Shown piece after piece: positions 1,356 through 21,185 of a stretch of 64,000 bases of DNA. The position numbers and the translations under genes were made by a program. The DNA comes from Buxus sempervirens (lineage: Eukaryota > Streptophyta > Magnoliopsida > Buxales > Buxaceae), in assembly GCA_947561395.2 (NCBI GenBank), contig OX387193.1, positions 9,672,001 through 9,736,000 of the forward strand. The letters run 5' to 3'. The notes beneath the pieces are model-generated. The model was not told the DNA's origin, searched no databases, and saw only the letters and a list, made by a program, of their open reading frames with translations. Position 1 is the first letter of the stretch; the number at the start of each line of letters is the position of its first letter.

Positions 1356-1440
1356 TGAAAAATTGGGAGGAAACTCCCCTTACCTTTGAAGCAGCGTTTG
1401 TTCGGCAAACTGACGCGGCTTCCAAAAAAAAACTCCAATA

Positions 1441-4400
1441 GTGGATTGCCATTTCCCTGAAGGTTCTAATGGGCCTTCGTCTTCAGGGGAATTATGTTTA
1501 GAAGGCCCACAAAAAACCCAAAAAGATTTTTCTATTTTTTCTAGAAAATTTAATTTTTTCAAAAAGGTCCAAACCACTTATGAACCATATAATCAGACCG
1601 AATTGGACCAGGTTGAATATGACTTCGACCTTGAGCTTGACTTTGACCTCATGGGGATCGAAGAAGAGACCGAGGTCGAAGAAGAAGACATTCCAAAAGA
1701 AATTGAATACCAATTGGAACGTCATGAAAAGGGGGTCCAACCTAATATTGAGGAGACCATATCCATAAATCTTGGGACCGAAGAGGACCCAAAAATTGTG
1801 AAAATCGGGTCATGCTTGTCTGATGTGCAGAAAAATGAAATGTCACAGTTCTTGGCAGATTACAAGGATGTGTTTGCTTGGTTGTATCGTGACATGCTGG
1901 GGTTGGACACGGACATGGTGGTGCATAAGTTGCCAATTTTGCCAGGGGTTAAGCCAATTAAGCAGAAGTTGAGAAGATTAAAGCCGGAATGGACCTTAAA
2001 GGTCAAGGACGAAGTGGTCAAACAATTTCAAGCCGGGTTTTTGGCAGTCTCTACTTACCCTGAGTGGCTCGCAAACATAGTGCCAGTACCAAAGAAGGAC
2101 GGGAAAGTCAGAATGTGTGTAGACTATAGAGATCTGAATAAGGCAAGCTCAAAGGATGATTTTCCACTTCCACACATAGACATCTTGGTGGACAATACTG
2201 CGGTACATAGTCTATTCTCCTTCATGGATGGTTTCTCGGGGTACAATCAGATCAAGATGGCTAAGGAGGATCAAGAGAAAACAGCATTTATCACACCTTG
2301 GGGCACATTCCACTATACAGTCATGCCGTTTGGGCTTAAAAACGCTGGGGTAACATACCAGCGGGCCATGACTGCACTATTCCATGATATGATCCACAAG
2401 GAGATGGAGGTCTACGTGGACGATATGATTGCCAAATCATGCAAAGAGGAGGACCACTTGATCAATCTGAAGAAAGTGTTTGATCGGCTCAGGAAGTACA
2501 GTCTACGGCTTAACCCGGCTAAATGCGTCTTTGGGGCTACATCAGGGAAGTTACTGGGGTTTATTGTGAGCCGAAGAGGAATTGAAATTGACCCGGCTAA
2601 AGCCAAGGCCATAATCGAAATGCCAGCACCCAGAACCGAGAAGGAGGTTCATGGTTTTCTTGGGAGGATTCAGTACATAAGCCGGTTCATAGCACAGCTC
2701 ACTGCTATCTGTGAACCAATTTTCAAGCTTATGTGGAAGGATAACCCGACGGTCTGGAATGAGGATTGCCAGCAGGCTTTCGATACGATCAAGGAATATT
2801 TACTGAACCCACCTGTGCTAGTGCCACCAACTCCAAGAAGACCACTAATCCTGTACTTTTCAGTGTTTGAAACGTCAATGGGATGTGTCTTGGGGCAACA
2901 TGATGAGACTGGTAGAAAAGAAAGGGCAATTTACTATCTGAGTAAAAAATTCACGGAATATGAAGCCAAGTACTCACCATTGGAGAAGACTTGCTGTGCT
3001 CTAGTGTGGGCCACTCAGAGGCTAAGGCACTACTTCCTTAGTCACTCCACACTATTGATATCCCGGATGGACCCGCTGAAATATTTATTTGAGAAACCGG
3101 CACTAATTGGCAGGACGGCAAAGTGGCAACTACTACTGTCCGAATTTGATCTCATGTACGTCACTCAGAAGGCAATCAAGGGTCAAGCCATAGCTGATCA
3201 CCTGGCTGCACATCCTCTGCCAGAATACCAACCCTTGAAGACCAACTTCCCAGATGAGGCAATTCTGTACACTGAAGAGGAGGACAGTGAGAGTTCCTGG
3301 CAGATGTTCTTTGATGGGGCCGCCAACATGAACGGAAATGGAATAGGAGTAGTCTTGGTTAAACCAGATGGTTCACACATCCCGATTGCAGTGAAGCTGA
3401 GATTCCAGTGCACCAATAACATAGCAGAATATGAAGCATGCATAATTGGATTGCAAGCAGCCATGGGTCATGGAGTAGAGGAACTTGACGTATACGGGGA
3501 TTCGAGTCTTATCATCTTCCAAACAACTGGTGAGTTGAAAACCAAGGATCACAAATTGATCCCCTATCACCAGTATTTGGAAGAAGTAAGCACAAATTTC
3601 ACTCGAATTTCCTTCAACTATATGCCAAGGGCCAAGAATCAGTTTGCGGATGCTCTAGCAACATTGGCTTCAATGGTCAGCATACCAGAAGGAGTAGACA
3701 TCAGAACACTGGAAATTGAAGTCAGAGATGAACCGGCTTACTGTCTCGTTCTAGAGGGAGCACCAGAAGAAGAAGCACCGTGGTTTCAGGATATCAAAAA
3801 TTTCTTGAACAATCGGAGTCTGCCAGAAAATGCCACTGCTACTGAGAAAAGGACAATACAGAGATTGGCTGGTCAGTTTCTGCTAAGTGGTGGACATTTG
3901 TACAAGAGGTCACATAACGACATTCTACTTAGATGTGTTGCCAAGGCTGAATCGGAAAGGCTGATTGAGACTGTACATGGAGGGGTTTGTGGGCCCCATA
4001 TGAGCGGACACATGCTTGCGAAGAAAATCTTGAGGCTGGGATATTACTGGACGACCATGGAACATGATTGCTGTATACATGTCAGGAGGTGCAACCAATG
4101 TCAGATATATGCAGATAATAAGCATGCGCCCCCGGGTGAGTTACACAACATGACATCCCCATGGCCCTTTTCCATGTGGGGCATAGATGTCATCGGCATG
4201 ATTTCACCTAAAGCATCGAACGGGCACAGATTTATCCTAGTGGCGATTGATTACTTCACTAAATGGGTAGAAGCAGCTTCATATGCGAACATCACAAGCA
4301 ACCATGTTATCAAATTTTTGAAGCACAATATCATTTGTCGCTATGGACTGCCAAGTGCCATAGTATCAGACAATGCTTCAAACATTAAGAACAAGGACAT

Positions 4401-5028
4401 GAAGAAGATGTGTGAGCAGTTTCAGATCACCCACCATAAGTCAGCTCCGTACAGGCCTAAGATGAATGGGGCAGTGGAAGCAGCAAACAAGAACATAAAT
4501 AAAATCATTCAGAAGATGGTAGTGAGCTACAAGGATTGGCATGAAATGCTGCCACTTGCTCTACATGCCTACAGAACCTCGATCCGGACTTCAACTGGGG
4601 CAACCTCGTATTCCCTAGTCTATGGGATGGAAGCAGTCTTGCCAGTGGAAGTAGAAATCCCATCACTCAGAGTGCTCATGGAAGCGGAATTGGAAGAAGC
4701 CGAATGGGTACAGTCAAGACATGATCAACTCAACTTGATAGAAGAAAAGCGATTAAAAGCACTATGTCATGGCCAGTTGTACCAAAGGAGAATGGCTCGG
4801 GCCTACAATAAGAAAGTGAGGCCCAGAACTTTCCAAGAAGGAAACCTAGTTCTAAAGAAAATTCTACCATTTTTGGAAGACCCTCGTGGTAAGTTCAAGC
4901 CCAATTGGGAAGGGCCTTATGTCGTCAAGAAGGTCCTGTCAGGGGGTGCACTCATCTTGACAGAAATGGATGGGTCAGATTTTCCTCAGCCAATTAACTC
5001 TGATGCAGTAAAAAGGTATTTTCCTTGA
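1441..5028 (+). CDS. Retrotransposon pol: reverse transcriptase, RNase H, archaeal-type RNase H, integrase
   Basis: This is an open frame of 1195 codons that begins inside the polyprotein, since the first codon is GTG and not a normal start. The reverse transcriptase lies at about residues 180-400, with MPFGLKNAG and the catalytic YVDD at 325-328. A first RNase H follows at about 460-600. A second RNase H starts near 620 (FFDGAANMNGNGIG and NNIAEYEAC), the hallmark of the dual-RNase-H lineage. Integrase has an HHCC finger (H846, with C884 and C887) and the catalytic triad D916, D977, E1013 with the canonical 35-residue gap between the last two. The frame has no internal stop, although the upstream protease and G-patch segments are frameshifted. 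The copy could therefore be fairly young but is unlikely to be autonomous as it stands. Confidence 0.93.
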   Translation: MDCHFPEGSNGPSSSGELCLEGPQKTQKDFSIFSRKFNFFKKVQTTYEPYNQTELDQVEYDFDLELDFDLMGIEEETEVEEEDIPKEIEYQLERHEKGVQPNIEETISINLGTEEDPKIVKIGSCLSDVQKNEMSQFLADYKDVFAWLYRDMLGLDTDMVVHKLPILPGVKPIKQKLRRLKPEWTLKVKDEVVKQFQAGFLAVSTYPEWLANIVPVPKKDGKVRMCVDYRDLNKASSKDDFPLPHIDILVDNTAVHSLFSFMDGFSGYNQIKMAKEDQEKTAFITPWGTFHYTVMPFGLKNAGVTYQRAMTALFHDMIHKEMEVYVDDMIAKSCKEEDHLINLKKVFDRLRKYSLRLNPAKCVFGATSGKLLGFIVSRRGIEIDPAKAKAIIEMPAPRTEKEVHGFLGRIQYISRFIAQLTAICEPIFKLMWKDNPTVWNEDCQQAFDTIKEYLLNPPVLVPPTPRRPLILYFSVFETSMGCVLGQHDETGRKERAIYYLSKKFTEYEAKYSPLEKTCCALVWATQRLRHYFLSHSTLLISRMDPLKYLFEKPALIGRTAKWQLLLSEFDLMYVTQKAIKGQAIADHLAAHPLPEYQPLKTNFPDEAILYTEEEDSESSWQMFFDGAANMNGNGIGVVLVKPDGSHIPIAVKLRFQCTNNIAEYEACIIGLQAAMGHGVEELDVYGDSSLIIFQTTGELKTKDHKLIPYHQYLEEVSTNFTRISFNYMPRAKNQFADALATLASMVSIPEGVDIRTLEIEVRDEPAYCLVLEGAPEEEAPWFQDIKNFLNNRSLPENATATEKRTIQRLAGQFLLSGGHLYKRSHNDILLRCVAKAESERLIETVHGGVCGPHMSGHMLAKKILRLGYYWTTMEHDCCIHVRRCNQCQIYADNKHAPPGELHNMTSPWPFSMWGIDVIGMISPKASNGHRFILVAIDYFTKWVEAASYANITSNHVIKFLKHNIICRYGLPSAIVSDNASNIKNKDMKKMCEQFQITHHKSAPYRPKMNGAVEAANKNINKIIQKMVVSYKDWHEMLPLALHAYRTSIRTSTGATSYSLVYGMEAVLPVEVEIPSLRVLMEAELEEAEWVQSRHDQLNLIEEKRLKALCHGQLYQRRMARAYNKKVRPRTFQEGNLVLKKILPFLEDPRGKFKPNWEGPYVVKKVLSGGALILTEMDGSDFPQPINSDAVKRYFP

Positions 5029-5986: not shown

Positions 5987-7716
5987 TTAATCTCTGTCTT
6001 CTAGCCCCTCCTTAAGCTCCCGAATCCGAGCTGCCTGAGCTGCGATAACTCCAGAAGCCCCCTCTGCAGCGGGATCATTCAAGAAGGAAATAACCTCGTC
6101 TGAAAGAGTCTGCCTAATCCGCATGCTCCTAAGGCTGGCTAAAGCATCCTGATGCTTCTGCCGCAGTGCTCGGACTTCAAGACAGCGGGCCTGCCTATGC
6201 TCCTCAAGTTGCTTCTCCATGGCAAGACGGCGGGATACCTGCTCTGCAAGTTGCCTCTCCATGTCAAGGCCCCGTATCCTGAGTTCCTGGGCCTCCCGTA
6301 CCCATATCTACTGAAGCCGTCTATGAGAAGCTCTCTCAGACTCTAAAATATCCTCATAAGTAGGAGCTAAGACCGCAGGAGGATCTTCGGGTACTGGTGC
6401 CTGACTCTGTATCTGCTCCTTGATCCAGAAGAGATAATCCTTCACATGGGCTTCTGAGAAGACGGGGCCACGCATGAAGCGAACATAGGACTACTCCCTC
6501 ATCAACCAGGCATTCAGCTTCATGGTAGCTGGAGAAAGGGGCCCAAGATGATCCTCATACCCACTTGGGACTATAATCCCCTGGGTCGCTCTGAACTGAC
6601 GAAGGACCCGCAAAGGAAGATAGAGCACCGCATGTCTCAGGCCAGCCAGAATTAGAAAATTACGGTCTCGGAAGCTGATCACGGTCTCTGCATTGGGCTG
6701 ATAAGTACCAGGCCATCTCACCTGGTCATCCTGAAGGGAGCCCAAGAAAGTAAACCAACCCTGTTTGCCCCCTGGAATATCGGGACACCCCCGGTTACTC
6801 ATCAAAATGGGGACTTTCAAGTTCGGGAAGAAGTGTCGATTGATTTCTTCAATCTGACTCAGATGATCAAGTAGCCAAAGCTGCAAAAGAAAAGAGATAT
6901 ATCAGCACATTGTAAAAAAAAAAAAAAAAGCAAAAGAAAAAAAAAGCAAGAAAAAAGCAAGAAAAAAGCAAAAAAAAAAAAAAATATAAAAAAAAGTTTT
7001 TTTTTTACCTGCAGGATCTGTGCACATGCTAGGAAGCGTTTCGACTTCCTATTGTAGCAATCAGTCAAAGCCTGGTACATCCCAGCCAAAATCATAGGGG
7101 CCAACCTCTCCCGCTCCTTAACTTGGCATATCACTGAAATCAGGCCCAAGTCCACCTCATCATCATCTCATGGGAAAAGCAACTGGTTGACCACAATCAG
7201 GGTCAAGGCGTTGAACCGGGCTTCCTTATTCTCCCCTTTCAAAAGCTTCTCAGTCAAAAAAGCCTTAGATAGGGTCAAAAGGGTGTCAGAATCCCCTAAG
7301 TCCTTCTTCCCTATGCCCAAGAATGTAGAAGCCTCCTTCTTGTAACTAGGCCTAAGAGGCGGGTTCACTACCTTCTCTGCAAACCTCAAGCCCAAGATGG
7401 TTTCCACCTCCTCAATGGTTGGGGTCATTTCATGGGTCCCAAAATGGAAAAGGTTGAGGTCGGGTACCCAATGACCTATCATGGCCTCTATAATCTCCCA
7501 CTTGAAGGGAACCTTGGGAATGAGCAGGGTATGGCCTAGATTTGTAGAATCCCATCTCCTTTCCTCATCTAGGGTTATAGAGTTAACCCATCTTGTGTAG
7601 AAGGAATCCACAGGGTTGTACCTAGTGAGATTTGGGGGTTTTGATCTAAAAGGTTGTTTTGCAGGGGAGGCAGTGTGGACAGACAATGGCAGGGCAGAAG
7701 ATGATCCGGATTCCAT
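5987..7716 (-). pseudogene. Antisense gene 1: plant mobile domain (PMD) protein with coiled coil, three nonsense codons
   Basis: Two exons on the minus strand, 7716-7009 and 6880-5987, join in phase 0 at a GT-AG intron (GCAG|GTAAAA ... TTTGCAG|CTTTGG), giving 533 codons before a TAA. Exon 1 has the PMD signature: a tryptophan- and proline-bearing helix, then HFGTHEMTPTIEEVETILGL at about residues 125-145. Exon 2 holds the rest of the domain and then an acidic/basic coiled coil (about residues 440-510) rich in heptads. Three in-frame stops interrupt it: TGA at 7168-7170, TAG at 6491-6493 and TAG at 6309-6311. All three could come from C-to-T changes in CGA or CAG. The start is the ATG preceding MESGSSS, about 110 bases after a TATA box. 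PMD proteins are related to Mutator-type transposase-associated proteins and to Arabidopsis MAIN/MAIL1. The function in this element is unknown. Confidence 0.75.
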
Positions 7717-7826
7717 TGGATGTGATGGGAGCAAGCTAGAACGCAAGAGGAGGAAGAAAAAGGCGAAAAAGGGGGTTTCTAAACTCAAAAACTCGTAAAA
7801 AATGCTCAAATCCCAAGACTGGTTGC

Positions 7827-7989
7827 ATTTATAGTATCTTTTAATGTATCCGGTAACTCAGACCGGATAAACACGGTTTTATTCGTATCCGGTTAAGTAT
7901 ACCGGATACAAAGGAGGCCATGAGTATCTGGTATGTTATACCGGATATAAAGAGCAATCAATGTATCCGGTCTGATATACCGGATACAA
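7827..7989 (-). promoter_or_regulatory. Promoter of antisense gene 1: TATA box with adjacent palindrome array
   Basis: On the minus strand a TATAAAT box lies at 7833-7827, about 110 bases before the ATG of gene 1. Immediately upstream, from 7845 to 7989, are four imperfect palindromes with arms TGTATCCGG and CCGGATACA and loops of 7-11 bases. The unit nearest the TATA box has the loop TAACTCAGA seen also in the LTR arrays. Only about 12 bases separate TATA and the array. The arrangement suggests a transcription-factor or DNA-hairpin module. It also sits just past the end of antisense gene 2 (8179). Confidence 0.6.
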
Positions 7990-9954
7990 AGAAAAATGCA
8001 AAAAAAAGAGCTAAGGATGAAAAATCCGAATTTTTTACCTGTTTCACCTGTGTACAAGTTATAATTGCATAAAATTAAGAACAAAAGAAGTGCAAGACAA
8101 GATAGAATGAATAAAAATATTCTTTTATATATGAGTCTCGTTTGTACAAGTGATAATGAAAAAAACAGAAATCCTAATCTACTGCTCCTGTGCAGGATCA
8201 TCCCCGCGCCCTCTACCACGCGCTCTACGGCCTCTCCCTCGGGATGGTCGGCGCCTATAATAAGACAGGAGGCGCTCCGCCATATAACGCGGTCTCCGTC
8301 CGATGAAGGACTGAAGCTGGTACTCGATGCAGTAGTCCGACGTGTCAGGAGAAGGAACAGGAACAGAATCGGAGGAAGCCTCGGGCTCAGCATCAACCGT
8401 CCCAACTGGACCCTCAGCCATAGCAGGCTCTGCTCCCGCAGCTCCAGAAGGCCCAACATCAGCAGCAGAGGGACCAGGAGCAGAAGTAGCTGGGTCCACA
8501 GAAAAGTCTTAAAGTCAAGATATAAGGAGGAACCAAAGGGAAAAATTAAAGAAAACATACCAGGGATATCTACAGCAGGCACTGGGGGATCCGGATCCAC
8601 TGGGTCAGCAGCAGGGACCTCCTCCGGCTCAGGAACCATCACTGTAGATGAAGGAATAGCCGGGGCATCCGCAGGAGCAGCTGGGGCATCAGTAGATGGA
8701 GCATCACCAGGATCAGCAGCTGGGACATCCACAGGATCCGTAGCCCGAGCAGGAGACGAGTCAGGAATAAGGAAATCAGGCACGAAGGCAGTATCCTGAT
8801 CTGGGACCGAGCCCTGCACAAGTCAAACAAGCATATCAGAATAGCAGAAACAAGAAAATGAAAGAAATGAAAATATAAGAAGGCCAGATACCTGTCTAGC
8901 CTGGAGCTCAGCAACCAAGGCCTCCAGCTCCCTGATCCGGGCATCCCGCTGGGCCACGACCGCATCGTGCTCAGCAATCATATCATCGATCGCGGCCCGC
9001 TGACTCTCGATCCGATCCCGGATGGTATTCAGCTCGTGTACCTGCCAACAAAAACAGAAGTAGGGTCAGAAATGCATAAGGAAAGAAAAGAGGATGAAAA
9101 TATGAAGAGTGAAAGACTTACCGTGTCCTCATGAATCCGGATACGGATCCCGCCGATCTCTGTCACCCCGGCACGAGTGGGTCGATCCATCAAACATCCT
9201 ATAGATACCCGCTGGAACCACTCATCGTAATCTCCAGCTACTGTAAGCCCCTCCGCATCCAGGAAATGATCGAACTGATCAGCGTTAAAACCCGGCAGGA
9301 GCGTGTCGAGACCCACAGGAGGAGGAGGAACGGGGATGCGAAGTGCGCCAGTGCGCTGGAAGTACAGGCGCTCTCCCAAGTACATCACCCTACCAAGCCT
9401 CCCAAGGAAGCACTGGTAGGGCTGACGTCGTCGATCTCTATCGAAAGCATCCTGTACCACCATCTCACGGGCCACTCCGACATCCACGTCATCAAATCGG
9501 GACAGGAGGAGCTGCAAAAAAGAGAAATAGTCAGGTACAGTCAAGATACAGAAAAAGAAATAAAAAGGAAAAAGGATAAAGGGTTTACATCAGGTCGGCG
9601 GGTGTGCGCGCGTGGGAAACGCGGCACGGGGTAAATCGGAGTCGCCACCGCCTGATGGAGTGCAGGCGGACACCTGGGTGCCTAATCTTGTCTAATTAGG
9701 GCTCTTGGGTCTGCGGCTTGAGATTCTAAGGTTGGTTCTCGGTTGCGGGCTGGGGAAGTCCGTAGACACCCCAATCCACCCCGTCGGATGACGGGTCCCG
9801 TGGGTTCCCTAACTTGAGTCAGCTTATTCACTTTGGTTCTCACCCGACTCCTAATCCAGCATGTAACTTGGTTAAGTCTTGGCGGGACCACCTGAGTGGT
9901 GTGGGTCCCTTTAGTTGATTTTATCTTTGCTTATCTTTGGCTTTCTGAGTCTGA

Positions 9955-10560
9955 TTGGGTGGGCCCCTTTTGGAAGGCCCACGGTGTCCTTGGTGGGCCT
10001 GGGTAGGCCCGTGTGCCTTTGGTGGGCCTCTGTCTAACCCTAGGAGGCCCTGTGGGCTTTGGTTAGTGAATTGATTTTGCTTAGATTTGAATTATTAGGT
10101 TTCTTTCATGCAAAAGTGGGCCGGATGGGTCTGTGGGCCCCTTAGGTGGGCCCACATGGTGACCAAGGGTATTTTAGTTTTATCTTATTTATATTTAAGC
10201 CAAAGTCCTTTGGGACGTTGGGCTTGGGGCCCGTAGTCCGGTTTTGGGCTTTGGAAGCCCAAGTTCAATGAAGTTAGGGCCTGAGACCTTCCTTGGCTTA
10301 GTTGGCGGGCTTTGGCGGGCCCGGCAGGCCCTAGCCCATGGTCTCGGCCAAACCAGGCAGTTTATACATTCATTCATATGGCAAGGCTCGGGTGGGCCGC
10401 ATTGGGTTTGGCCCGCCCGATTCAACTGGTTCACCTTTGCTTAGGTTAATTAATTAGCATGCTTTGGTGTCCATTGGGCTTGGTGGGCCCCGTTGGAAGG
10501 CCCACAAGTGTGCCAAGTTTGGACCGGCGGTCCAAGTCCCATCTTGGGTTTCCGGTTGGC
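9955..10560. other. Dense TGGGCC/GGCCCA cluster inside the reverse LTR
   Basis: Across about 600 bases the words GGGCC or GGCCC occur more than a dozen times, mostly as TGGGCC/GGCCCA. In plant genes such site II elements bind TCP factors. Here they lie in the transcribed 3' part of an LTR-like insertion, so function is uncertain. No gene was recognised. Confidence 0.5.
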
Positions 10561-10648
10561 CCGGAAACCCTGCTGGTTCGTTGGTTTTAAAGCTAATCTT
10601 CACAGAATTCGGCAATATATCACAATATAGCAAGAATCATGCTTCTGT

Positions 10649-10754
10649 GTGTATCCGGCAAGTGTGTCCGGATACACAGGGGCCATAGGTGATCCGGCCA
10701 GTGTATCCGGATACACAGAGGCCATAGGTGATCCGGCCTGAGTATCCGGATCAC
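10649..10754. repeat. Palindrome array, GTATCCGG/CCGGATAC type, internal to the reverse LTR
   Basis: Three partial units with GTATCCGG and CCGGATAC arms lie here, separated by the phrase GGCCATAGGTGATCCGGCC. Unlike the other arrays it is not next to a visible TATA box. Confidence 0.6.
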
Positions 10755-11531
10755 CCTGGAATTGGCCTTTTTGGGTTTTGGCCTTTTGGGATTGATCCCA
10801 GGGGGTTTCTAAGGTCTTCTACTAGTCATGTGGGCCCCTGGGAGGGCCCACATTGGTTAAGGTTTGATGGAGAAGCCTCATGTGGCTTCTCTTTGGGACT
10901 TTCCAGCAAGGCTATGGGGGGCTTGGGGGTGACGGAGCATGCAAAACAACTTGCCAACGGGGAGGACAGCATACCAACTTCCCCCCATCAGCAAAGAACA
11001 ATTGATAGATATAAAGAAAACAAGAACGAATAACCGCATGCACGCACGGGGAGCGAATCAAGCATGTAAAAAAACATAAAGGAATGCATGCTCATACGAT
11101 CCTAGTAGGCATGTCATTATGCATGTATGAGCTAAAAACAGCAGAAAGAGATCCTCCAGCATTATCTGAATCTAGACTCACCGCTCGACATAGACCTATA
11201 GAGAAGGGGAAGAGAAGGGGGGGTTATATGGGGGGTACATTAGATCCAACATGAGAAGGAGCAGGCTCCTTTAAAAAGACTTAGTATGGGCCCCTAGACA
11301 GCAACCGAAGGAGATCAAAATATGTTAACATAAACTCTTATGCTTCCTAAGAAACCCTACGTAGACTTCTTACCGAAAGTAGCTCTCATGCCACGAAAGA
11401 AACCGTAACACGTGCTCATGTCACCATAGAAGAGAACCCATGCAATGGATGAAGCCAACTTTAAAAAAAATCATGTTTAGAAAACTCCTATTTTAACATA
11501 TGTACAATAAAGAGCTACTAGGAACCTTACC

Positions 11532-11776
11532 TGGTGGCCCTTGACCTTCTAGGCAATGTGGAGGTGTTCCTTGGAGGTGGTACAGTAACTAGGAGCAGCT
11601 TCCTTCTTAACCACAGCAGCAGCCTCCTCTTCTTCCACTTGTTGGGTTGTCAATGGAGATGGAGGAGGAAGGGGAGGATGGGAGAGGCTTGGGTGGTGTG
11701 TAGAAGGGATGGAGGGCCAAGGGAGTTTGAAGAGGGAGGGATTCCAGTGAGAGTGGGTGAGAGAAGAGAGCTCCAA
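11532..11776 (-). other. Short reading frame in the reverse LTR leader, ending at a splice donor
   Basis: An ATG at 11776 opens a 75-codon frame on the minus strand, about 45 bases after the TATA box, and a CAG|GTAAGG donor occurs at 11531 close to its end. It is proline- and glutamate-rich and I recognise no family. It could be a leader peptide, a remnant, or chance. Confidence 0.25.
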
Positions 11777-11820
11777 AATCGCAGAAAAGAAGCCAACCCC
11801 GGACTGAGCTGCTGTTTTGG

Positions 11821-11944
11821 TATTTATAGAAAAACTAATGTATCCGGCAACTCAGGCCGGATACACTAAGCCCTCTTCGTATCCGGACTTGAAGTCCGGA
11901 TACACTAGCTTCCCTTTGTATTCGGCAACTCAGGCTGGATACAT
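11821..11944 (-). promoter_or_regulatory. LTR promoter (minus): TATA box and palindrome array
   Basis: TATAAATA occurs on the minus strand at 11828-11821, with three palindromes directly upstream at 11839-11944. Two further units at 14814-14881 belonged to the same array before a solo LTR inserted at 12001. The unit next to TATA has the loop CAACTCAGG. A splice donor-like CCAG|GTAAGG follows at 11531. Confidence 0.55.
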
Positions 11945-12440
11945 AACTTAATGATTTCAAAATTTAATGCCGCCGCGAATCTGTCGGCCAAGTGGCGCGG
12001 TGTAGACACCCAAAAATTGCACGATTTTTGATAAATCTTGAAGGAGAGAAATATTTTATTGGAATTTCCAATTCTTTGCATTGGGTTTGAGATACTTAAC
12101 CCATTTGAATCCAAAACGGAAAAGGGAAATGCCCGAATTCAATCTTTTGTGCAAAGTCAAGCTTTTTCCGGTTGAATTTTGTTGACTTTTGACCTCAGAA
12201 AATGAAATATTTTTTAAAGCCAGATTTCAAGATAATTTTTCCCGGTAATCAGGTTTTTAGCCATGTTATTGCATAAAAGAATTTTTTGAGATTTTAAATC
12301 TTGACGAATACCTTGGTTTTAACATATTGAACCTTTTTTTCCAGACCTGAAAAATCGGAATTTTGCCTAGAACTGGAAAGTTGACTTTTTATTCACTTGG
12401 AATTTGGGTCTGGAACTATTTTTAATGGATTCAAATGGGG

Positions 12441-12534
12441 GGGTGTTTGCTTATTTACATGTAATATCTTAAGTAAATGGAGATTAAAAAATACGAGGAC
12501 ATTTACTTAAACGATATTACATGTAAATAAGTAT
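12441..12534. repeat. Inverted repeat (MITE-like hairpin) inside gypsy LTR
   Basis: Arms of about 30-40 bases face each other: TTATTTACATGTAATATC on the left and GATATTACATGTAAATAA on the right, with a TTAAGTAAATG / CATTTACTTAA extension. The same hairpin occurs in the solo LTR at about 27909-28005 but is absent from the LTR at 18889, which is about 490 bases shorter. Confidence 0.65.
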
Positions 12535-12570
12535 TGCCTGTGTTAAAATTTGGAAAAAAGGCTTTTTCCC

Positions 12571-12713
12571 TGTATCCGGCAACTCAGGCCGGATACAAGT
12601 GATTCTCTTTGTATCCGGTGGAAAGTGCCGGATACAAAGGAACTTTAGTGTATCCGGCATTATATACCGGATACATTAAAGCTCTAGTGTATCCGGCCTG
12701 ACATGCCGGATAC
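12571..12713 (+). promoter_or_regulatory. Four-unit palindrome array in solo LTR, upstream of TATA
   Basis: Four units with arms GTATCCGG/CCGGATAC lie about 168 bases before TATAAATA at 12881. The first unit has the loop CAACTCAGG. The fourth ends next to TTTTGCTCAAAATTAGGG. Confidence 0.7.
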
Positions 12714-12880
12714 GCTAGTTTTGCTCAAAATTAGGGTTTTTCGAGAGCTTTTCACTTTTACCATCATATCCCTCATTAAATGAGGGGAAATCTCAGAAAT
12801 AGCCTTAGGGTTAAGGTTGAAGGGCTATAGACATTATGTTGTGTCTACCATTCTCACCAACCCTAACCCTAGCCTTTGCC

Positions 12881-12995
12881 TATAAATAGGAGGCTCCTCC
12901 TTAAGCAAATGGCACTCAACTCTTGTTTTGAATTCTCGCAAAGAAGAACTCCAAGAGAAGAAGAAAACCGCTGGGGAATCGCTTCCAGAACTCAG
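12881..12995 (+). promoter_or_regulatory. LTR core promoter and leader splice donor (solo LTR)
   Basis: TATAAATA (12881-12888) is preceded closely by a double CCCTAA phrase (about 12860-12873). About 110 bases later comes CTCAG|GTAAGC (donor near 12995), followed by T-rich intron-like sequence. The same arrangement is kept in the other gypsy LTRs in the window. Confidence 0.5.
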
Positions 12996-14813
12996 GTAAG
13001 CCTCAACTTTTCTTTTTATTTTCTGTCTTTACATTCCTAGATCTAGATCTCTTCTTCTACCTTTCTGTAGTGTAAAGCCTTGTTTGTATGTGTGGAAATC
13101 CTTCCCCGGCTCAAAGTATCTCAAGACTCCCCTAGCCGTAAAACGTGAAGGCGGATCTAGGAGAAACGAGACTGGGGATTGACCCTAGTGCTAGAACCCA
13201 TGTAGGATAAGGCCTTTTTGATTGATTGTAAACCGTTCCATATTCAAAGTACCCTTGATTATCTTGAAGAACCGTGTTTAACAGGGAGAGAGAACAGAGG
13301 GAAACGATAATGGAACGGAACCCTAGGCTGTTTAGAACCTTATTTTGATGCATGCTATGTTGTTCTATTGATCTTATATGGTTTTTCACATTTGCACATA
13401 CATAGTGTCATTTTGGCGGGATAGGCTCATATTTGGGGTTTATTGCATTTATTGTGATAAATCTCAAATAAATGGCCTCAATCAATTCTGGAATGCCTTT
13501 TGGATGATTTTTAAAGTATTTGTGTTCATCTTGCACGAATCACATATTTGTATCAATTTTCGGATTTGGTTTTTTTCTTCAAGAATGGCTTAGCTTGACA
13601 GCACCTGTACCCCTACTTCGGACGCCCATAACTTCATCATCCGGATGAATTTTGGGGCGATTCCAGAACCATGGGAAAGGTGAGGCTGTCTAGTTTATGT
13701 CCACCAAATTTCACAAATTTCTATCTAGCGGATTTTTGACACCTCTCTGCCGAAGTTGAGTGGACAGTTCAGGTTCAAATGCAGAACTTGTCACTTCGAC
13801 GGAGCGCCATGTGTTCGATTTAAGTCCGATTCGAATGATTTTTGTTTCTATGCACTCCTTTATGAGTCTATTTTCAAATCCAGTTGGTTTCATAATTTTT
13901 GGATTTCATTTGAATTATTGGTAGCCGATTTACTCAGAACTGTTCATTTGTACTTTTCTGGGTAAATCTGTGATCTTCGGGGCCTGTTCGGGAGACCACC
14001 CAAGGCACATCCGAAGGGATTTTTGTATGAGGCTAGTTTCTGTTGAAAGATGGCCATACAAACTTCAATCACACCAAATTTCGTGGATTTTTATGTAGTG
14101 GATTTTTCTAGACAATTTTCCGAAGTTGCCCACTTTTCACTTTTAAAAATCCCCAGCAGCAACTTGAAAGGAGCATAACTCCTAGGATTTTTATCGGAAT
14201 GAAGTGAAATTTTGCATGATACCCTTATTTACTGTAATCTTTCAAATGGACTTGGTTTGGTTCAATTTAATATTGGATTTGAATGATTTTAAGGCAAATG
14301 GCATACTTTTTACCAAACTTCCCGGATTTGATTCAACTTGGTTTTGAGCAACTTGTGCTTTGATTTCCATCTTTTGAGATATTCCAGAAATGATATTGAC
14401 ATAAGAGAGGATCTAAAATCCATTTAGATCTTCATGTGAAAATATCATATATTGGTCCTTTTTCAAGGTCTTTTATGATTTTAGCAAGCTTTCTTATTTT
14501 TTTTGCATGAACATGCACTTGGCAACCACTTCGTGTGGATGAATGGGAGTGCCTAACACCTTCCCCCGTTTATAATCTAATCCCCTTACCCATCTCTGGA
14601 GTTGATTTTCAAGTAGGGTTATTTTTATCCTAGAATGTTTCTTTTTTCGCTTTTTGCTTATTTTTTTTATCCTTTGGTGTCCATTCTCACCCCAAAATTA
14701 TGAATGGTGGCGACTCTCCCATTTTTATTTCGAGCCCCGTGTGTTGACGGAGGGATGATCACACCGGTGATTTTTTCCCATGTCTCACACGCGGATTTCG
14801 CGCGAACACCTTT

Positions 14814-14881
14814 ATGTATCCGGTCTTCAAGTCCGGCCATGAAGGATAGGCAGTGTATCCGGTATATGTGTCCGGATACAA
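14814..14881. repeat. Two palindrome units separated from their array by the solo LTR
   Basis: GTATCCGG and CCGG(ATAC) arms occur twice here. The left half of the same array is at 11839-11944. The solo LTR at 12001-14789 splits them. Confidence 0.6.
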
Positions 14882-15081
14882 ATCGAAAAATTACGGATTT
14901 GACCTTCGACCGATTCGACCGATTTGACCCTTTTTGATATCTACGGATTGCCCGTACGAAATTTTTATATTTAAGATTTAGTCCCTGAGATATTTTGCTG
15001 CGTTGGCTGCCACGTGTGCAGTTCTTGCGCCACGTGTGCAGTTTCCGGCTTTTGCTACTCTGAAACTTCGACAGATCATAT

Positions 15082-15480
15082 CTCCTTCATCCGAACTCCG
15101 ATTTGAGCAAACTCAATTGTGTTAAACTCGTATCGGAGCCCTCTATTTAATGACATGGGGCTAAGCACTTGGCACGGATTCTGAGAAAAAGTCAACTTTT
15201 AGCCTTCCCTTAAGTTTGACTGCCCTTAGAACCTTCATCTGGACTCCGATTCCTGCAAACCCTGTTGCGCTGGAACCGTGTCGGGATTCTTTATCCATTG
15301 AGCTAAAGTAAGGTATTTGGCACGGAAATCGAGGAAAAGTCAACTCTTGGCTTTCCCTCAAGTTTGACCGCCCGCAGAACCTTTATCTGGGCTCCGATTC
15401 CTGCAAACCCAGTTGCGCTGGAACCGTGTCGGGATTCTTTATCCAACGGGATAGATCAAGGTTAACCAAATTTTATCTGA
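15082..15480. repeat. Tandem repeat, about 145-base unit, close to three copies
   Basis: The phrases GACTCCGATTCCTGCAAACC and GCTGGAACCGTGTCGGGATT repeat at about 145-base spacing, together with AAAAGTCAACTTTTAGCC and AAGTTTGACYGCCC. The first copy (from about 15082) is more divergent. The array lies in the 5' (U3) part of the reverse LTR. Confidence 0.7.
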
Positions 15481-16944
15481 TTTAAAGGTCAACTTTTCAC
15501 CCCTTAGGGTTTGACTTTCTGGCCGGGTTTTGTATTTCTGGCCTTTTGGGAGCGCAAAAATGAGGTGTTGGGCCCGAGCGGTCACGGTCTAAGTGCACCC
15601 GAGTGGTGCGGGGCTGACTCCTATCAGCATCCCGGACCTGGGCCGACCATCGCAAAGCCACAAGGAAATCTGCGACCTCAGGTACCGGGGATGGGCGGAA
15701 GAAAGTCATATAGGTGTACATAAACACCTGACAAAATAAAAATTAGTCGGTGATCAAGAAAATAAAGCCTAAGGAATTAAACCAGACAGATGAATTCAAT
15801 ACCTGTAGAATCTGCCAGAAAAACCGGCTGCTAACTCCATCGCCTCTCGGGGATGCCAGGCCTCGAACCGCTTGGCACAACCCGGCCAGGATGGTCCCAT
15901 AGATGAGTCGGCCCCATGCCAGCTGACGGGTCTGACGAAGATCTCTCAAAGCGTCCAAGAAAAGTGGGTTGACACCGGTGGTATCCTCCGGGAAAAAGCA
16001 GCTCCCAAGCATCAACAAGAAAACATGTCGGAAGATGGGCACAAAATCTGCATCCTCCACGGAGATGGTCGCATGTCTCCCGTCGTAATGACGAGCCAGG
16101 CTCTCTCGCAGCCAGCTGATGCAAAGACGACCACTCCGCCCATCCCAAGCAGCAGGTGGCAGGGCCTGATATCCCAAGAGAAGGCCGATGTCCTCCGCAG
16201 AAGGCCGCTCCAAGACAATGGTCCGCCCCGTCAACGGAATACCAGTAATCATCACAAAATCTGAGGGGTGGATCCCTAGCTCCACGTCCGGAAGATGGAA
16301 TGACTGGGTCTCCGGGAAATATCTCTCCATCATGGCGAAGATGAGCGGACGATCGGCTCTGAAGGATGGGATGCTAAGAAAATGGTCCAGATGACACCTC
16401 CCAAACTCGCGCCGGAGGGCCAGAGAAAGCGACTGGGCCAACTCGCTGAATCTCCCCCAACTGCCTCGCAAATGGGAGGAGTGATACGGAAGCGGCACAT
16501 CAGCCCTGATGCACATCGAAGGGTGGCTATCCAAGCCACGGAGGAGCTCTGTATCACGCACAGAGGCCCTCAACTCCTCAGAGACTCCTGCCAGAGCTAC
16601 AGCAGTACCCTCCTGAGCCGCACCTCTGGCTCTGCCTCGGCCTCGACCACGGCCTCTCTCGCCCTCAAGGGCCTGGTCCTGAACTCTGCCTCGGCCTCGG
16701 CCTCGACCTCGAACAGGTGCAACAACGGGCTAAAAGTTCCAGAGAAAGGCGTGAAAATTGGTGTGGGAAGAGAGTAGAAGGAAGAAAAGCAGAATTGAAA
16801 ACCTACCTCGGCAGAGCTCTCCCGGGAGACATCTAGTGGCTTCAACAAGGTGGCACTGGAACTCGCCTCTGTCTGAGCCCGCGAAGTGGAGGGCTGATCA
16901 GCTGGGTCAGCCTCCTCCTGAACGCGAGAACGACTCCTAGCCAT

Positions 16945-17958
16945 CTACACAGGGAAGTGTTTTATGAATTTATTAAAAATTTTACCTTGCTTTTGGTCTA
17001 GGTTCACAGGATTATTTTTCAAAATTATCGTGAATTATGGGGGAAGTGAGAGATATTTTCTATTCCTAATTCTAAAACATTTTTCTCAACCCTAAAAGAT
17101 TATTTCAGCACTTAACCTTTCTTAATATTTTGTGGTTGCAGGATATGGGAAAAGTGAAGACCAAAGGATCAAAAACAGGAGTTATAGGAAAGGCAACAGA
17201 AATTCTAATTTGATATGGCATGTCAGAAAGTCAGGAGAAATTTTCACAATAGAGGGGCAGTCCACCAGTAATAATTCCTCAAAAGGCCTTCGTTATCAGA
17301 AGCATGTAATCAGTATTGCCAACAAGCCAAAGAATTGCAGCAAATTGGAGATCAAAGTTTGTGCTAACAAAAAGTCTAACATACATATCAGGCAAATCAA
17401 TCAGAATTGCAAAATTTTGATCAAGAATTGGCTTTGAGCAATGCAATATGGTTTCTACCATCAATTGGAGATTATCGCAAAAAAGGGAAAAACTCATGCA
17501 ATCAATAATCACCGGCAGTCAATCGGATGAATTAAAGTCTGATCAGATAAACGGGAAAACCCAAAAGACAGCAGTAACAGCAATCAACAACCTAGTGCAA
17601 GGTAAGCAGAAGAATCGGGGAAGCACGAAATAAATCATACAATGCTGTCAAGGCATCACCAAAGCATCAAGCCGCAGGTAATCAAGGGATACAGGATTCA
17701 ACACAGCAAGCATATATTCAACACAGCAAGCATATATCACCAAAGCGTCAGGCCGCAGATAATCAAGGGATACAGGATTCAACACAGCAAGCATTCGGCT
17801 TCTAACATTGAAGGAGTCAATACAGTAAGCATACATGCTCGCCCAATGCATAATGGATTCAACACAGCAAGGAAAAAATATGCATGCTCGCCCAATGTAT
17901 ACAGTACTCGAAACAGTTAACTAAAAGGGGAAGAATGCATACTAAGATGCTCACTGAC
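16945..17958 (-). other. Probable leader intron of antisense gene 2
   Basis: No coding capacity is evident. The stretch is bounded by a donor (CAG|GTCAGT) and an acceptor (GTGTAG|ATG). It contains a short tandem repeat at about 17640-17890, in which GGATTCAACACAGCAAGC recurs, with CATCACCAAAGCATCAAGCC and CGTCAGGCCGC variants in between. The repeat fits the habit of Tat elements of carrying tandem repeats in their 3' untranslated regions. Confidence 0.45.
17640..17890. repeat. Short tandem repeat with GATTCAACACAGCAAGC units
   Basis: The phrase GATTCAACACAGCAAGCAT recurs four to five times with intervening copies of a second phrase (CAYCACCAAAGCRTCARGC). Units are irregular at about 45-90 bases. 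It lies in the predicted leader intron of antisense gene 2. Confidence 0.6.
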
Positions 17959-18309
17959 CTGGTCGGATTGAGTCGGGTTGGAGAAGAGCAGGCGAATGGA
18001 CGAGAAAGCAGAAAAAATCGAGCTAGGGCTCGACTGCTGCCTTGAATGAGCAAACAATGAAGGTCGCCGGAGTTGCAGACTGTCGCCGGCAACAATGGGA
18101 GGCGCCGGAGCTACCGAAAATGGCCTGAGAGGAAGGAAGAACCGTCGGGGACGAAAGAGAAAGAGAGGTAGCCGGTTTGAGTAATCGGAGAAGAAAGAAG
18201 AGAAGGGGAAAAGTCGCGGTCGCGCGCGACTTATAAAACCTTGGGTATCCGGTCACTCAGACCGGATACAAGCAAGCCCTTGATTATCCGGATACACGTA
18301 CCGGATACC
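17959..18309 (-). promoter_or_regulatory. Promoter and untranslated leader exon of antisense gene 2
   Basis: On the minus strand a TATA-like TTATAAG lies at 18237-18231. Two palindromes with GTATCCGG / CCGGATAC arms lie directly upstream at 18243-18309, and the unit closest to TATA has the loop TCACTCAGA. Downstream a CT-rich leader ends in GACCAG|GTCAGT at 17959, a good splice donor, and the matching acceptor is TGTGTAG immediately before the ATG at 16944. This predicts a leader intron of about 1 kb. The promoter call comes from position and resemblance to the gene 1 promoter. Confidence 0.5.
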
Positions 18310-18490
18310 AAAGAAAAAAAAAGAAAAAAAAAGCAGAAAAAACAGAAAAAATAGGAAAAAACAGAAAAAATAGAAAAAAAGCAGAAAAGGAAATGAAAAA
18401 ACAAAAAGGGGAAAAAGAAGAAGAAAAATGTGAAAAAAAAGAAAGAAAAAAAGAAAAAAAAAAGAGAAAAAAAAAAGAAGAGCAAAATTG
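18310..18490 (+). other. Purine-rich (A/G) low-complexity tract upstream of 3' LTR
   Basis: About 180 bases are almost entirely A and G on the + strand. The tract lies between antisense gene 2's promoter and the 3' LTR. The true polypurine primer tract is probably the shorter one at 18875-18887. Whether this tract serves as a secondary primer is unknown. Confidence 0.55.
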
Positions 18491-18534
18491 TGCTATAAGT
18501 CTTACTATTTTCTCAAAATCCCTATTTTGCCTTA

Positions 18535-18720
18535 AAATCCACCTCACAGCCACGAGAGCTCAGTGGAATTTAGGGCAACCTTGGGAAATGTGCTGGTCAA
18601 AAGGATGATATCCACTCACTTTTTAACTTGGTTTGATAAAAAATCAGTTTTCAAAAAAATCCTATTTTTGGGCTTAAAATCCACTTCATAGCCACGAGAG
18701 CTCAGTGGAATTTAAGAATT
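18535..18720. repeat. Direct repeat of about 46 bases near the 3' LTR
   Basis: The phrase AGCCACGAGAGCTCAGTGGA, with AAAATCCACYTCAYAGCC before it, occurs twice, at about 18535-18580 and 18670-18717. It lies in the untranslated 3' part of the gypsy element. Confidence 0.7.
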
Positions 18721-18874
18721 CTTGGAGAGATGCCCCCCTTAAAGTTAGGGCTTTTTGGCAAATCTCCACCCAAAATTTGTTTTTACAAAATTGAATTCAA
18801 TCAAGCAAATCATGCTTAAGGGAGTGCAATTTGGGCTTGTCTAATCTTTGCAGCTCACTGCTTCGCAGCTCCCG

Positions 18875-18887
18875 CAAAGAGGGGCAG
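18875..18887 (+). other. Polypurine tract of gypsy element
   Basis: AAAGAGGGGCAG lies one base from the TGTAGACACC start of the LTR. In LTR retrotransposons this tract primes plus-strand DNA synthesis. Its presence marks the following LTR as the 3' LTR. Confidence 0.85.
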
Positions 18888-18888
18888 T

Positions 18889-21185
18889 TGTAGACACCCC
18901 AAATTGCACAAGCAATCATCAAAAATCATTATCTCCTTGAAAGCCAGCATAGAAATTGAAGAAAATGAACTTTTACCTGTATCCGGTAACTCAGGCCGGA
19001 TACAAGTACTCCTCTGTGTATCCGGTGGAACATATCGGATACAAGTGAGTCTTAGTGTATCCGGTGTCATATACCGGATACCTTAAGGCCCTTGTGTATC
19101 CGGTCTGATATACCGGATACATAAGTTTTGCTCAAAATTAGGGTTTTCCGAGAGCTTTTCACTTTTACCATCATATCCCTCATTAAATGAGGGGAAATCG
19201 CGGAAATAGCCTTAGGGTTAAGGTTGGTGGGCTATAGACATTATGTTGTGTCTACCATTCTCACCAACCCTAACCCTAACCTTTGCTTATAAATAGGAGG
19301 CTCCTCCTTAAGCAAAGGGAACCAACTCTTGTTTTGAATTCTCGCAAAGAAGAACTCCAAGAGAAGAAGGAAATCGCTGCGAGAGTGCTTCCAGAATCCA
19401 GGTAAGCCTCAAACTTTTATTTTATTTTCTGTATTTACATTCCTAGATCTAGATCTCTTCTTCTACCTTTCTGTAGTGTAAAACCTTCTTTGTGTGTGGA
19501 AACCCTTCCCCGGCTCAAAGTATCTCGAGACTCCCCCTAGCCGTAAAACGTGGAGGCGGGATGTAGGAGAAACGAGACTGGGGATTGACCCTAGTGCTAA
19601 AACCCATGTAGCATAAGGCCTTTTGATTGATTGTAAACCGTTTCATATTCAAAGTACCCTTGATTATCTTGAAGAACCGTGTTTAACGGGGAGAGAGAAC
19701 AGAGGGAAACGATAATGGAACGGAACCCTAGGCTGTTTAGAACCTTATTTTGATGCATGCTATGTTGTTCTATTGATCTTATATGGTTTTTCACATTTGC
19801 ACATACATAGTGTCATTTTGGCGGGATAGGCTCATATTTGGGGTTTATTGCATTTATTGTGATAAATCTCAAATAAATGGCCTCAATCAAATTCTGGAAT
19901 GTTTTAAATGTTTTTCAAAGGTTTTGGATTCATCTTACACGAATCTCACACACTTTATCACAGTTTTGAGTTGGTTTTACTCAAAAAGGGCCTAACTGGA
20001 CAGCACCTGTACCCTTACTTCGGATGCTCATAACTTCATCGTCCGGATGAATTTTGGAGTGATTCCAAAACCATGGGAAAGGTGAGGCTGTATAGTTTAT
20101 GTCCACCAAATTTCATAAATTTATATCAAACGGATTTTTGACACCTCTCTGTCGAAGTTGAGTGGACAGTTCAGGTTCAAATACAGAACTTGTCACTTCG
20201 ACGGACCGCCATGTGTTCGTTTTAAATCCGATTCGAGTGATTTTTATTTCTGAGTACTCCTTTAGGAGTCTATTTTCAAATCCAGTTGGTTTCATAATTT
20301 TTGGATTCCATTTGAATTATTGGTAGCCGATTTATTCAGACCTGTTCATTTGTACTTTTCTGGGTAAATCTGTGATCTTCGGGGCCTGTTCGGGAGACCA
20401 CCCAAGGCACATCCGAAGGGATTTTTGTATGAGGCTAGTTTCTTTTGAAATATGGCCATACAGACTTCAATCACACCAAATTTCGTGGATTTTTATGGAG
20501 AGGAATTTTCTGTGTGATTTTCCAAAGTTGCCCACTCATTACTTTTAAATATCCCCAGCAGCAACTTTCAAGGAGCATAACTCCTAGGATTTTTATCAGA
20601 ATGGATTGAAATTTTGCATGAGACTCTTATTTACTATAATCTTTCAAATGGATTTACTTTGGTTCAATTTAAAATTGTATTTGAATGATTTCAAGGCAAA
20701 TGGCATACTTTTCACCGAATTTTCCGGATTTGATTCAACTTGGTTTTTGAGTAACTTGTGCTTTGATTTTCATCTTTTGAGATATTCCAGAAATGATATT
20801 GACATAAGAGAGGATCTAGAATCCATTTAGATCTTCATGTGAAAATATCATACATTGGTCCTTTTTCAAGGTTTTCTATGATTTTGGCAAGCTTTCTTAT
20901 TTTTGCGTGAACATACACTTGGCTACCACTTTGTGTGGATGAATGGGGGTGCCTGACACCTTCCCCCGTTCATAATCTAATCCCCTTACCCATCTCTGGA
21001 TTTGATTTTCAAGTAGGGTTATTTTTACCCTAGAATGTGCTTTTTAGCTCCTTTTGTTTATTTTTAATCTTTTGGTGTCCATTCTCACCCCAAAATTAAG
21101 AATGGTGGCGACTCTCCCACTTTTATTTCGAGCCTCGTGTGTTGACGGAGGGATGATCATTCCGGTGATTTTCCCATGTCTCACA
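18889..21185 (+). mobile_element. 3' LTR of the gypsy element
   Basis: It begins TGTAGACACCCC after the polypurine tract and ends TCTCACA. Within it are a four-unit palindrome array (18978-19122), TATAAATA at 19288-19295 preceded by CCCTAACCCTAAC, and CCAG|GTAAGC near 19401. It is closely similar to the solo LTR at 12001-14789 but about 490 bases shorter, mainly lacking the hairpin region. The downstream flank is AAAAG, whose partner is outside the window. Confidence 0.9.
18978..19122 (+). promoter_or_regulatory. Four-unit palindrome array in 3' LTR, upstream of TATA
   Basis: Four palindromes with arms TGTATCCGG/CCGGATACA lie 166 bases before TATAAATA at 19288. The first loop is TAACTCAGG, as in the gene 1 promoter. 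The last ends before TTTTGCTCAAAATTAGGG, which is shared with the solo LTR at 12001. Confidence 0.7.

Follow-up and report, generated by a model that had tools for sequence, protein, structure and literature searches.

A palindrome array common to the long terminal repeat and antisense gene promoters of a Ty3/gypsy element in Buxus sempervirens, a probable binding-site cassette

We analyzed a 64-kb stretch of the Buxus sempervirens genome (contig OX387193.1, positions 9,672,001 to 9,736,000; hereafter the window), which consists of Ty3/gypsy elements nested in one another. One of them carries two genes for plant mobile domain (PMD)-type proteins antisense to pol, and a short palindrome, repeated in arrays, lies at the promoters of both genes as well as in long terminal repeats (LTRs). 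The genome searched for the array comprised 676.5 Mb in 247 contigs, the window within it. The window contains the following parts, including open reading frames (ORFs).

1414 to 5028, plus strand: pol ORF with reverse transcriptase, RNase H, a second RNase H-type domain (RVT_3) and integrase, in that order (Pfam scan)
5987 to 7800, minus strand: antisense gene 1 (inferred extent), with a PMD/DUF7745 exon at 7168 to 7716, further ORFs to 5987 and, by eye only, a heptad-like stretch at 5987 to 6307
9603 to 15567, minus strand: reverse-oriented LTR (family R), probably solo, split by the solo LTR at 12001 to 14789; bounded by homology in L054-L056, L061, L062 and L068, and about six bases short at its start (15567 side)
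12001 to 14789, plus strand: solo LTR with a perfect 5-bp target-site duplication, CGCGG, at 11996 to 12000 and 14790 to 14794
15570 to 18230, minus strand: 5' part of antisense gene 2 (inferred extent), with a PMD exon at 15743 to 16516 and an RG-rich N-terminal part
18889 to 21185, plus strand: 3' LTR of the element, beginning TGTAGACACC behind a polypurine-like tract, AAAGAGGGGCAGT, and ending CA
25542 to 28443, minus strand: solo LTR with the target-site duplication TATAC on both sides, holding a three-unit array with partly changed arms

In the pol product RVT_3 (residues 633 to 751) follows RT_RNaseH (residues 474 to 578), which gives the second RNase H of the Tat group, and minus-strand PMD-type ORFs stand behind pol, where that group has its extra antisense ORFs before the 3' LTR. 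The domain order is the Tat arrangement; judged by it and by the antisense ORFs, the predicted assignment is to the Tat-type Ty3/gypsy elements. TRP28 (PF04195), which marks the Retand lineage, was absent from the Pfam matches of the window pieces scanned, and exons outside the scan may be missed. An ORF with a G-patch domain lies 5' of pol, at 759 to 1355; this domain is atypical of plant Gypsy elements yet has been reported in them (PMC9289625).

The palindrome unit is 27 bp long, with arms TGTATCCGG and CCGGATACA around a 9-base loop and a half-site core of TATCCGG. An order-0 estimate puts the expected number of exact arms with a 9-bp loop in the window at 3e-7. Every array listed by an earlier, sequence-only reading of the window was recovered within about 1 bp, and two others were found, at 10650 to 10755 and 27773 to 27877. 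The arrays (no strand assigned) and their TATA boxes lie as follows.

7828 to 7833, minus strand: TATA box of antisense gene 1
7845 to 7988: four-unit array of the antisense gene 1 promoter (units at 7845, 7884, 7923 and 7962; 39-bp period), 11 bp from the minus-strand TATA box
10650 to 10755: three-unit array in the reverse LTR, downstream of its TATA box, with partly changed arms; the same place is also arrayed in L054, L055, L056 and L114
11839 to 11943: three TATA-proximal units of the reverse-LTR array (period 39), 10 bp from the TATA box
12571 to 12714: four-unit array in the solo LTR at 12001 to 14789, 166 bp ahead of its TATA box
14815 to 14880: two distal units of the same reverse-LTR array, parted from the others by the solo-LTR insertion; a single array in L054, L055, L056, L062 and L068
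18230 to 18235, minus strand: TATA-like box of antisense gene 2 (TATAAG on the minus strand)
18244 to 18309: two-unit array of the antisense gene 2 promoter, 8 bp from the TATA-like box
18978 to 19121: four-unit array in the 3' LTR, 166 bp ahead of its TATA box
19288 to 19295, plus strand: TATA box of the 3' LTR
27773 to 27877: three-unit array in the minus-strand solo LTR at 25542 to 28443, with partly changed arms

The units repeat every 39 bp in all of these arrays except two: the first step of the array at 10650, 10690 and 10729 is 40 bp, and one step of the reverse-LTR array is longer, measuring 103 to 104 bp in relatives. Across 48 sources (the window and 47 loci), 39 bp separated 167 of the 176 neighboring unit starts that lay no more than 160 bp apart. 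The units at 11839 to 11943 and at 14815 to 14880, previously listed as two stretches of the reverse LTR, form one array that was cut by the solo LTR with its CGCGG duplication. Because 12001 to 14789 is a solo LTR, the sense LTRs with arrays at 12571 and 18978 do not make up the LTR pair of a single element.

Genome-wide, the exact palindrome TGTATCCGG-N(0-20)-CCGGATACA occurs 14,781 times, compared to 0 for a reversed control. Loops of 10 to 30 bases account for 58 palindromes, which leaves at least 14,723 with gaps no longer than 9, and the gap was exactly 9 at every place among the matches listed. We sampled these sites in two ways. The first sample took 37 of the 43 palindrome clusters among the matches listed in the first 7.9 Mb of contig C1, and it comprised 25 sense-type LTRs (three stretches also held a gene 2 array), four gene 1 promoters, five reverse-type LTRs, and three arrays in what appears to be an internal leader (L052, L061, and L065). 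The second took 20 of the 58 places with odd loops, on 11 contigs, and gave eight sense-type LTRs, 11 reverse-type LTRs, and one downstream array of a reverse-type LTR. Every one of the 57 sampled sites falls inside these predicted Tat-type elements, three of them by inference; L052 and L065, whose window match spans the array alone, were assigned in this way because they resemble L061 and a gene 1 array lies about 11 kb from them. Recognizable host promoters and unrelated elements made up none of the 57, in a sample drawn by exact arms, which host genes need not have.

On contig C1, the gene 1 array and the next LTR array are 4.9 to 5.2 kb apart, counted between their first units, in three of the four sampled gene 1 copies (L048 to 3699845, L053 to 4536609, and L069 to L070); to the right of the fourth copy, L066, more than 30 kb contain no palindrome among the matches listed. 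The window has a corresponding distance of 11.1 kb, which shrinks to about 5.2 kb when the reverse LTR at 9603 to 15567 and the inner solo LTR at 12001 to 14789 are subtracted by length as nested insertions.

A variant unit with arms TTAACCGG and CCGGTTAA has 201 exact copies in the genome, compared to 45 for its control. Among the 50 of these 201 that were listed, the loop was 9 bases long in all and contained ACTCAG in 40. The three leader arrays carry an extra unit of this kind ahead of their ordinary units (L052:813, L061:788, and L065:791; 1 to 2 mismatches; ACTCA in the loop), and in L061 it is spaced 39 bp, center to center, from the ordinary units.

The distance between array and TATA box was fixed by promoter class in the samples, rather than random. 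It is 11 bp at all five gene 1 promoters and 10 to 11 bp at all six reverse-type LTRs, the window being counted in both sets; 11 further reverse-type LTRs gave 10 to 11 bp in nine cases and no TATA box by the pattern used in two. Among 13 gene 2 arrays the TATA box stands at 8 bp in seven and at 7 bp in one (L070). The other five copies (L037, L038, L043, L044, and L078) have TTTACTTAAG in place of the TTTTATAAG of the rest and hence no TATA box there, with the array retained. In 38 sense-type LTRs, by comparison, the distance is 153 to 155 bp in 26 and 163 to 166 bp in 12. Two spacing classes had been proposed from the window, and they hold outside it as well: 7 to 11 bp on the one hand and 153 to 155 or 163 to 166 bp on the other. 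We rejected helical phasing as the cause of the ∼155- and ∼166-bp LTR spacings: a single shared indel of about 12 bp beside the TATA box is the sole difference in spacing between the two sense-LTR classes and suffices to account for it.

The arrays are also oriented with respect to transcription. In the unit nearest the TATA box, the coding strand has CTGA at loop positions 2 to 5 in 37 of 38 sense LTRs, seven of eight gene 2 promoters, all five gene 1 promoters, and all six reverse-type LTRs, a total of 55 of 57 promoters having a TATA box; this count includes L070 and leaves out the leader array L061, whose TATA box has no counterpart in L052 and L065, which match it. In arrays of at least three units, TCAG occurs in 35 of 53 first loops and CTGA in 35 of 53 last loops, as against 3 of 103 middle loops, which indicates that arrays tend to mirror themselves and to bear a mark of polarity at both ends. 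It had been suggested that every lead unit keeps an ACTCAG loop; that loop is frequent but, as the TCAG count among first units indicates, not universal. Given that CTGA marks the TATA-nearest unit, the ACTCAG lead unit is TATA-proximal in the minus-strand promoters and TATA-distal in the sense LTRs.

To measure conservation we used ten copies chosen solely by the similarity of their gene 2 PMD exon (148 scored of 3,149 candidate places), a choice blind to the motif. All ten have four units in the 3' LTR, and nine have the two-unit gene 2 array. In these copies and the window, identity in the arm cores is 0.987 for the LTR and 0.955 for gene 2, compared to 0.728 and 0.757 for loops, 0.758 and 0.631 for spacers, and 0.87 to 0.94 and 0.69 to 0.78 for flanks. 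The arms are the best-kept part even though the CCGG they contain is prone to methylation; CpG positions outside the arms are 0.80 (LTR) and 0.87 (gene 2) identical. Loops and spacers of the LTR array together reach 0.743, below the minimum of 0.828 for any 72-column stretch of the downstream LTR sequence examined, and the arms therefore stand out inside a fast-changing block.

Both antisense genes are under purifying selection. Gene 2 has a PMD match of 2e-13 (50.6 bits; cut-off, 34.9), and gene 1 matches DUF7745 at 8e-7 (28.9 bits; cut-off, 26) and PMD at 1.3e-6 (28.2 bits, under the cut-off of 34.9). The PMD-A clades are described as exclusive to Gypsy elements (PMC5418596); gene 2 encodes a PMD within a Gypsy element, and gene 1 clears the DUF7745 cut-off only. 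The median ratio of nonsynonymous to synonymous rates (dN/dS) in the gene 2 PMD exon is 0.06 (30 copies; 412 of 435 pairs), and in gene 1 it ranges from 0.07 to 0.14 (five copies, 10 pairs). For gene 2 we preferred this median to the pooled pN/pS of 0.205, which counts out-of-register copies, because a start one residue too late leaves at least one copy (L015) out of register. The 3' part of gene 2 probably continues past the nested insertions, at about 9600 to 8180, and a coiled-coil-type match in 8823 to 9065, in its C-terminal part, is weak and below its cut-off. Pfam scans of the antisense-gene pieces given named no DNA-binding domain, and no solved structure was matched by sequence.

The geometry of the array, its distances to TATA boxes, the conservation of arms alone, and its restriction to these elements in the samples support well the earlier proposal of a cis-regulatory module shared by LTR and antisense promoters. 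We consider it likely that a dimeric DNA-binding factor recognizes the array, which would be a promoter-proximal cassette of binding sites common to both kinds of promoter. In the mechanism we propose, the cassette would serve the LTR promoter for genomic RNA and both antisense PMD-protein genes of the element. Two inverted half-sites, held 9 bp apart within 27 bp, have the shape that a dimeric sequence-specific protein would bind; such units would be stacked every 39 bp, the one nearest the TATA box being oriented by its CTGA. Binding may raise, or less likely gate, transcription at both promoter kinds together, and the same conditions would then yield genomic RNA as well as accessory proteins.

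Several observations weigh against this interpretation. Five of the 13 gene 2 arrays stand beside sequence without a TATA box, and the tenth motif-blind copy (L041/L012) has an LTR that begins about 955 bp from the PMD exon with no unit between. Arrays without an evident promoter occur at 10650 to 10755 in the window and in the leaders of L052, L061, and L065. Some sampled LTRs are both ends of one element, and the counts by promoter class are therefore not all independent; units may also copy one another, and the LTR and gene 1 arrays, whose loops 1 and 4 are alike, may share ancestry, so that part of the agreement reflects descent and not independent constraint. Finally, among 160 distinct units, complementarity at pairs 9/19 and 10/18 exceeded all 500 shuffles (relatedness was left in this test), as a structural role would also produce.

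What binds the cassette is a separate matter, and a host transcription factor, exploited by the element at all its promoters, is the candidate to which we give most weight, at just short of even confidence. Plant LTRs usually draw on host factors, and Tnt1, Tto1, and ONSEN are known to rely on host stress factors. The TATCC core resembles MYB-related (MYBS-type) sites, which we count in favor of a host protein. An element with no PMD match between pol and 3' LTR points the same way. This reverse-type element on contig C1 (LTRs L054 and L055, about 14.6 kb apart) has a five-unit array beside the TATA box in its LTRs; its pol ends at L123:243, about 2.2 kb before the 3' LTR, and the stretch from pol to 3' LTR, the only part examined, contained no palindrome and no match to pieces of both PMD genes better than E 0.13. 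As a single element, it fits either a host factor or a trans-acting element protein that relatives use. Other PMD genes likewise go without the array: none of 23 stretches upstream of them (1.2 to 2.5 kb; the last 12 were checked for half-sites and repeated 9-mers) carries it; at least 13 of these belong to one transposon family whose members often have two PMD ORFs. We therefore rejected the array as a general companion of PMD genes. Against a host factor, none of the 57 sites, sampled by exact arms, has a host-gene context, and a 27-bp dyad repeated at 39 bp would be unusually elaborate for a borrowed site.

A transposon family with two tandem PMD ORFs was noted at C3:45640023-45644521 and in 11 similar pairs among the matches listed, the ORFs mostly of about 575 to 590 amino acids, about 3.4 kb apart, and many without stops. 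Near one of the other PMD genes, just outside a transposon with two of them, L080:421-655 is a 22-bp tandem repeat with GGGGATACAA and ten direct, half-site-like copies of GGATAC. We rejected this repeat as a related array because homology to the shared element begins only at about L080:650, which leaves the repeat outside it; a perfect-palindrome pattern derived from it occurred nowhere at up to two mismatches.

A second candidate, to which we give somewhat less weight, is an element-encoded, trans-acting factor: an antisense PMD protein, probably as a dimer, may bind the array and control both the LTR and its own promoter, in an autoregulatory or anti-silencing loop analogous to those of VANC or foamy virus Tas. 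Both PMD genes have the array 7 to 11 bp from the TATA box where a TATA box is present, both are strongly constrained, the array is confined to these elements in the samples, and the subthreshold coiled-coil-type match in gene 2 would permit dimers. MAIN and MAIL1, which are host PMD proteins, are required for expression of a gene set enriched for a promoter motif (PMC7156037), and Retand antisense proteins have been proposed as transcriptional regulators (PMC11963269, PMC7264820). Against this stand the L054/L055 element, which keeps an array with no PMD match between pol and 3' LTR; the 23 other PMD genes without upstream arrays; the one arrayless copy among the ten motif-blind gene 2 copies; and the scans, which named no DNA-binding domain and matched no solved structure. 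Under an element-encoded binder, elements with the array and no PMD genes would be regulatory parasites. The fuller version, in which the antisense PMD proteins are dimeric sequence-specific regulators of their own element that bind the dyads, couple LTR and antisense promoters, and act in trans on such relatives, we regard as rather doubtful.

It is improbable that the palindromes act not as protein-binding dyads but as RNA hairpins or DNA cruciforms, in RNA packaging, processing, or structural insulation. The units are perfect inverted repeats, certain loops render whole units palindromic (e.g., ACTTGAAGT and CATTTAATG), the arms of the leader units are changed symmetrically, and the excess of complementarity at pairs 9/19 and 10/18 would suit such a role. 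The arrays, however, are locked in position to TATA boxes on either strand, and a TATA-adjacent array sits upstream of the transcript it would have to serve. The core is also preserved as sequence and not merely as pairing, with the proviso that pairs 3 to 8 showed zero compensatory changes among the 160 units; these pairs hardly vary, shuffles expect almost none, and the result speaks neither for nor against a hairpin. A neutral minisatellite, multiplied by slippage and gene conversion and simply carried along, is very improbable despite the 39-bp tandem structure and the tandem repeats often present behind pol, ahead of the 3' LTR, in related Retand elements (PMC11963269), for slippage would preserve whole units whereas conservation here is confined to the arm cores, with divergent loops and spacers, and the TATA distance is fixed in four promoter classes.

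The binding-site cassette resembles several known systems in part. The U3 repeats of Tnt1, Tto1, and ONSEN are, like the LTR arrays here, repeated sites in an LTR, cis elements that drive transcription. They are bound by host factors, and we know of no case in which they also stand at antisense accessory-gene promoters of the same element. VANC proteins, of the Arabidopsis VANDAL (MULE) elements, have a short target motif that is repeated in the element's own noncoding regions and rarely dense elsewhere, with repeats that diverge fast (PMC5735166, PMC10398659). The concentration of the palindrome in noncoding DNA of its own elements in all 57 sampled sites (three by inference) is comparable, as is the greater variation of loops and spacers than of surrounding LTR around fixed arms (18978 to 19121 and its relatives); by analogy, the binder here may also be element encoded. 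VANDAL, however, is a DNA transposon and not an LTR element, and the VANC21 motif YAGTATTAY recurs in one orientation, unlike the inverted dyads with a 9-bp gap and 39-bp period described here. In foamy viruses a single regulator, Tas, serves the LTR and an internal promoter (PMC4929722, PMC8670036); Tas is a demonstrated transactivator of an animal virus, in contrast to a putative factor at antisense promoters, and the likeness is one of analogy only. The antisense genes themselves recall those of Retand and Grande (TRP28; maize gene23). In maize Grande, gene23 has its own promoter, and a regulatory role has been proposed for the Retand/Grande antisense genes (PMC11963269, PMC7264820). Retand differs in having TRP28, not found in the window pieces scanned, and the accessible portions of the same two papers contain no mention of an array common to an antisense promoter and the LTR. 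A literature search on the arm sequence returned, among the matches listed, no transposon paper by title or opening of the abstract, and a site common to LTR and antisense promoters was not found in the literature searched, as far as its accessible text goes.

Antisense accessory genes recur in Tat-type elements and are suspected regulators, for which the accessible parts of the literature name no target site (PMC7264820, PMC11963269). A rigid array of dyads at LTR and antisense promoters is a concrete and readily synthesized candidate for such a target. If a host factor binds it, the array marks a switch that depends on the host and has 14,781 exact units in one genome. PMD function has been termed unknown (PMC9289625); if an antisense PMD protein is the binder, this would be the first function for retrotransposon PMD (PMD-A) proteins, and it would give a plant retrotransposon a retrovirus-like regulatory circuit.

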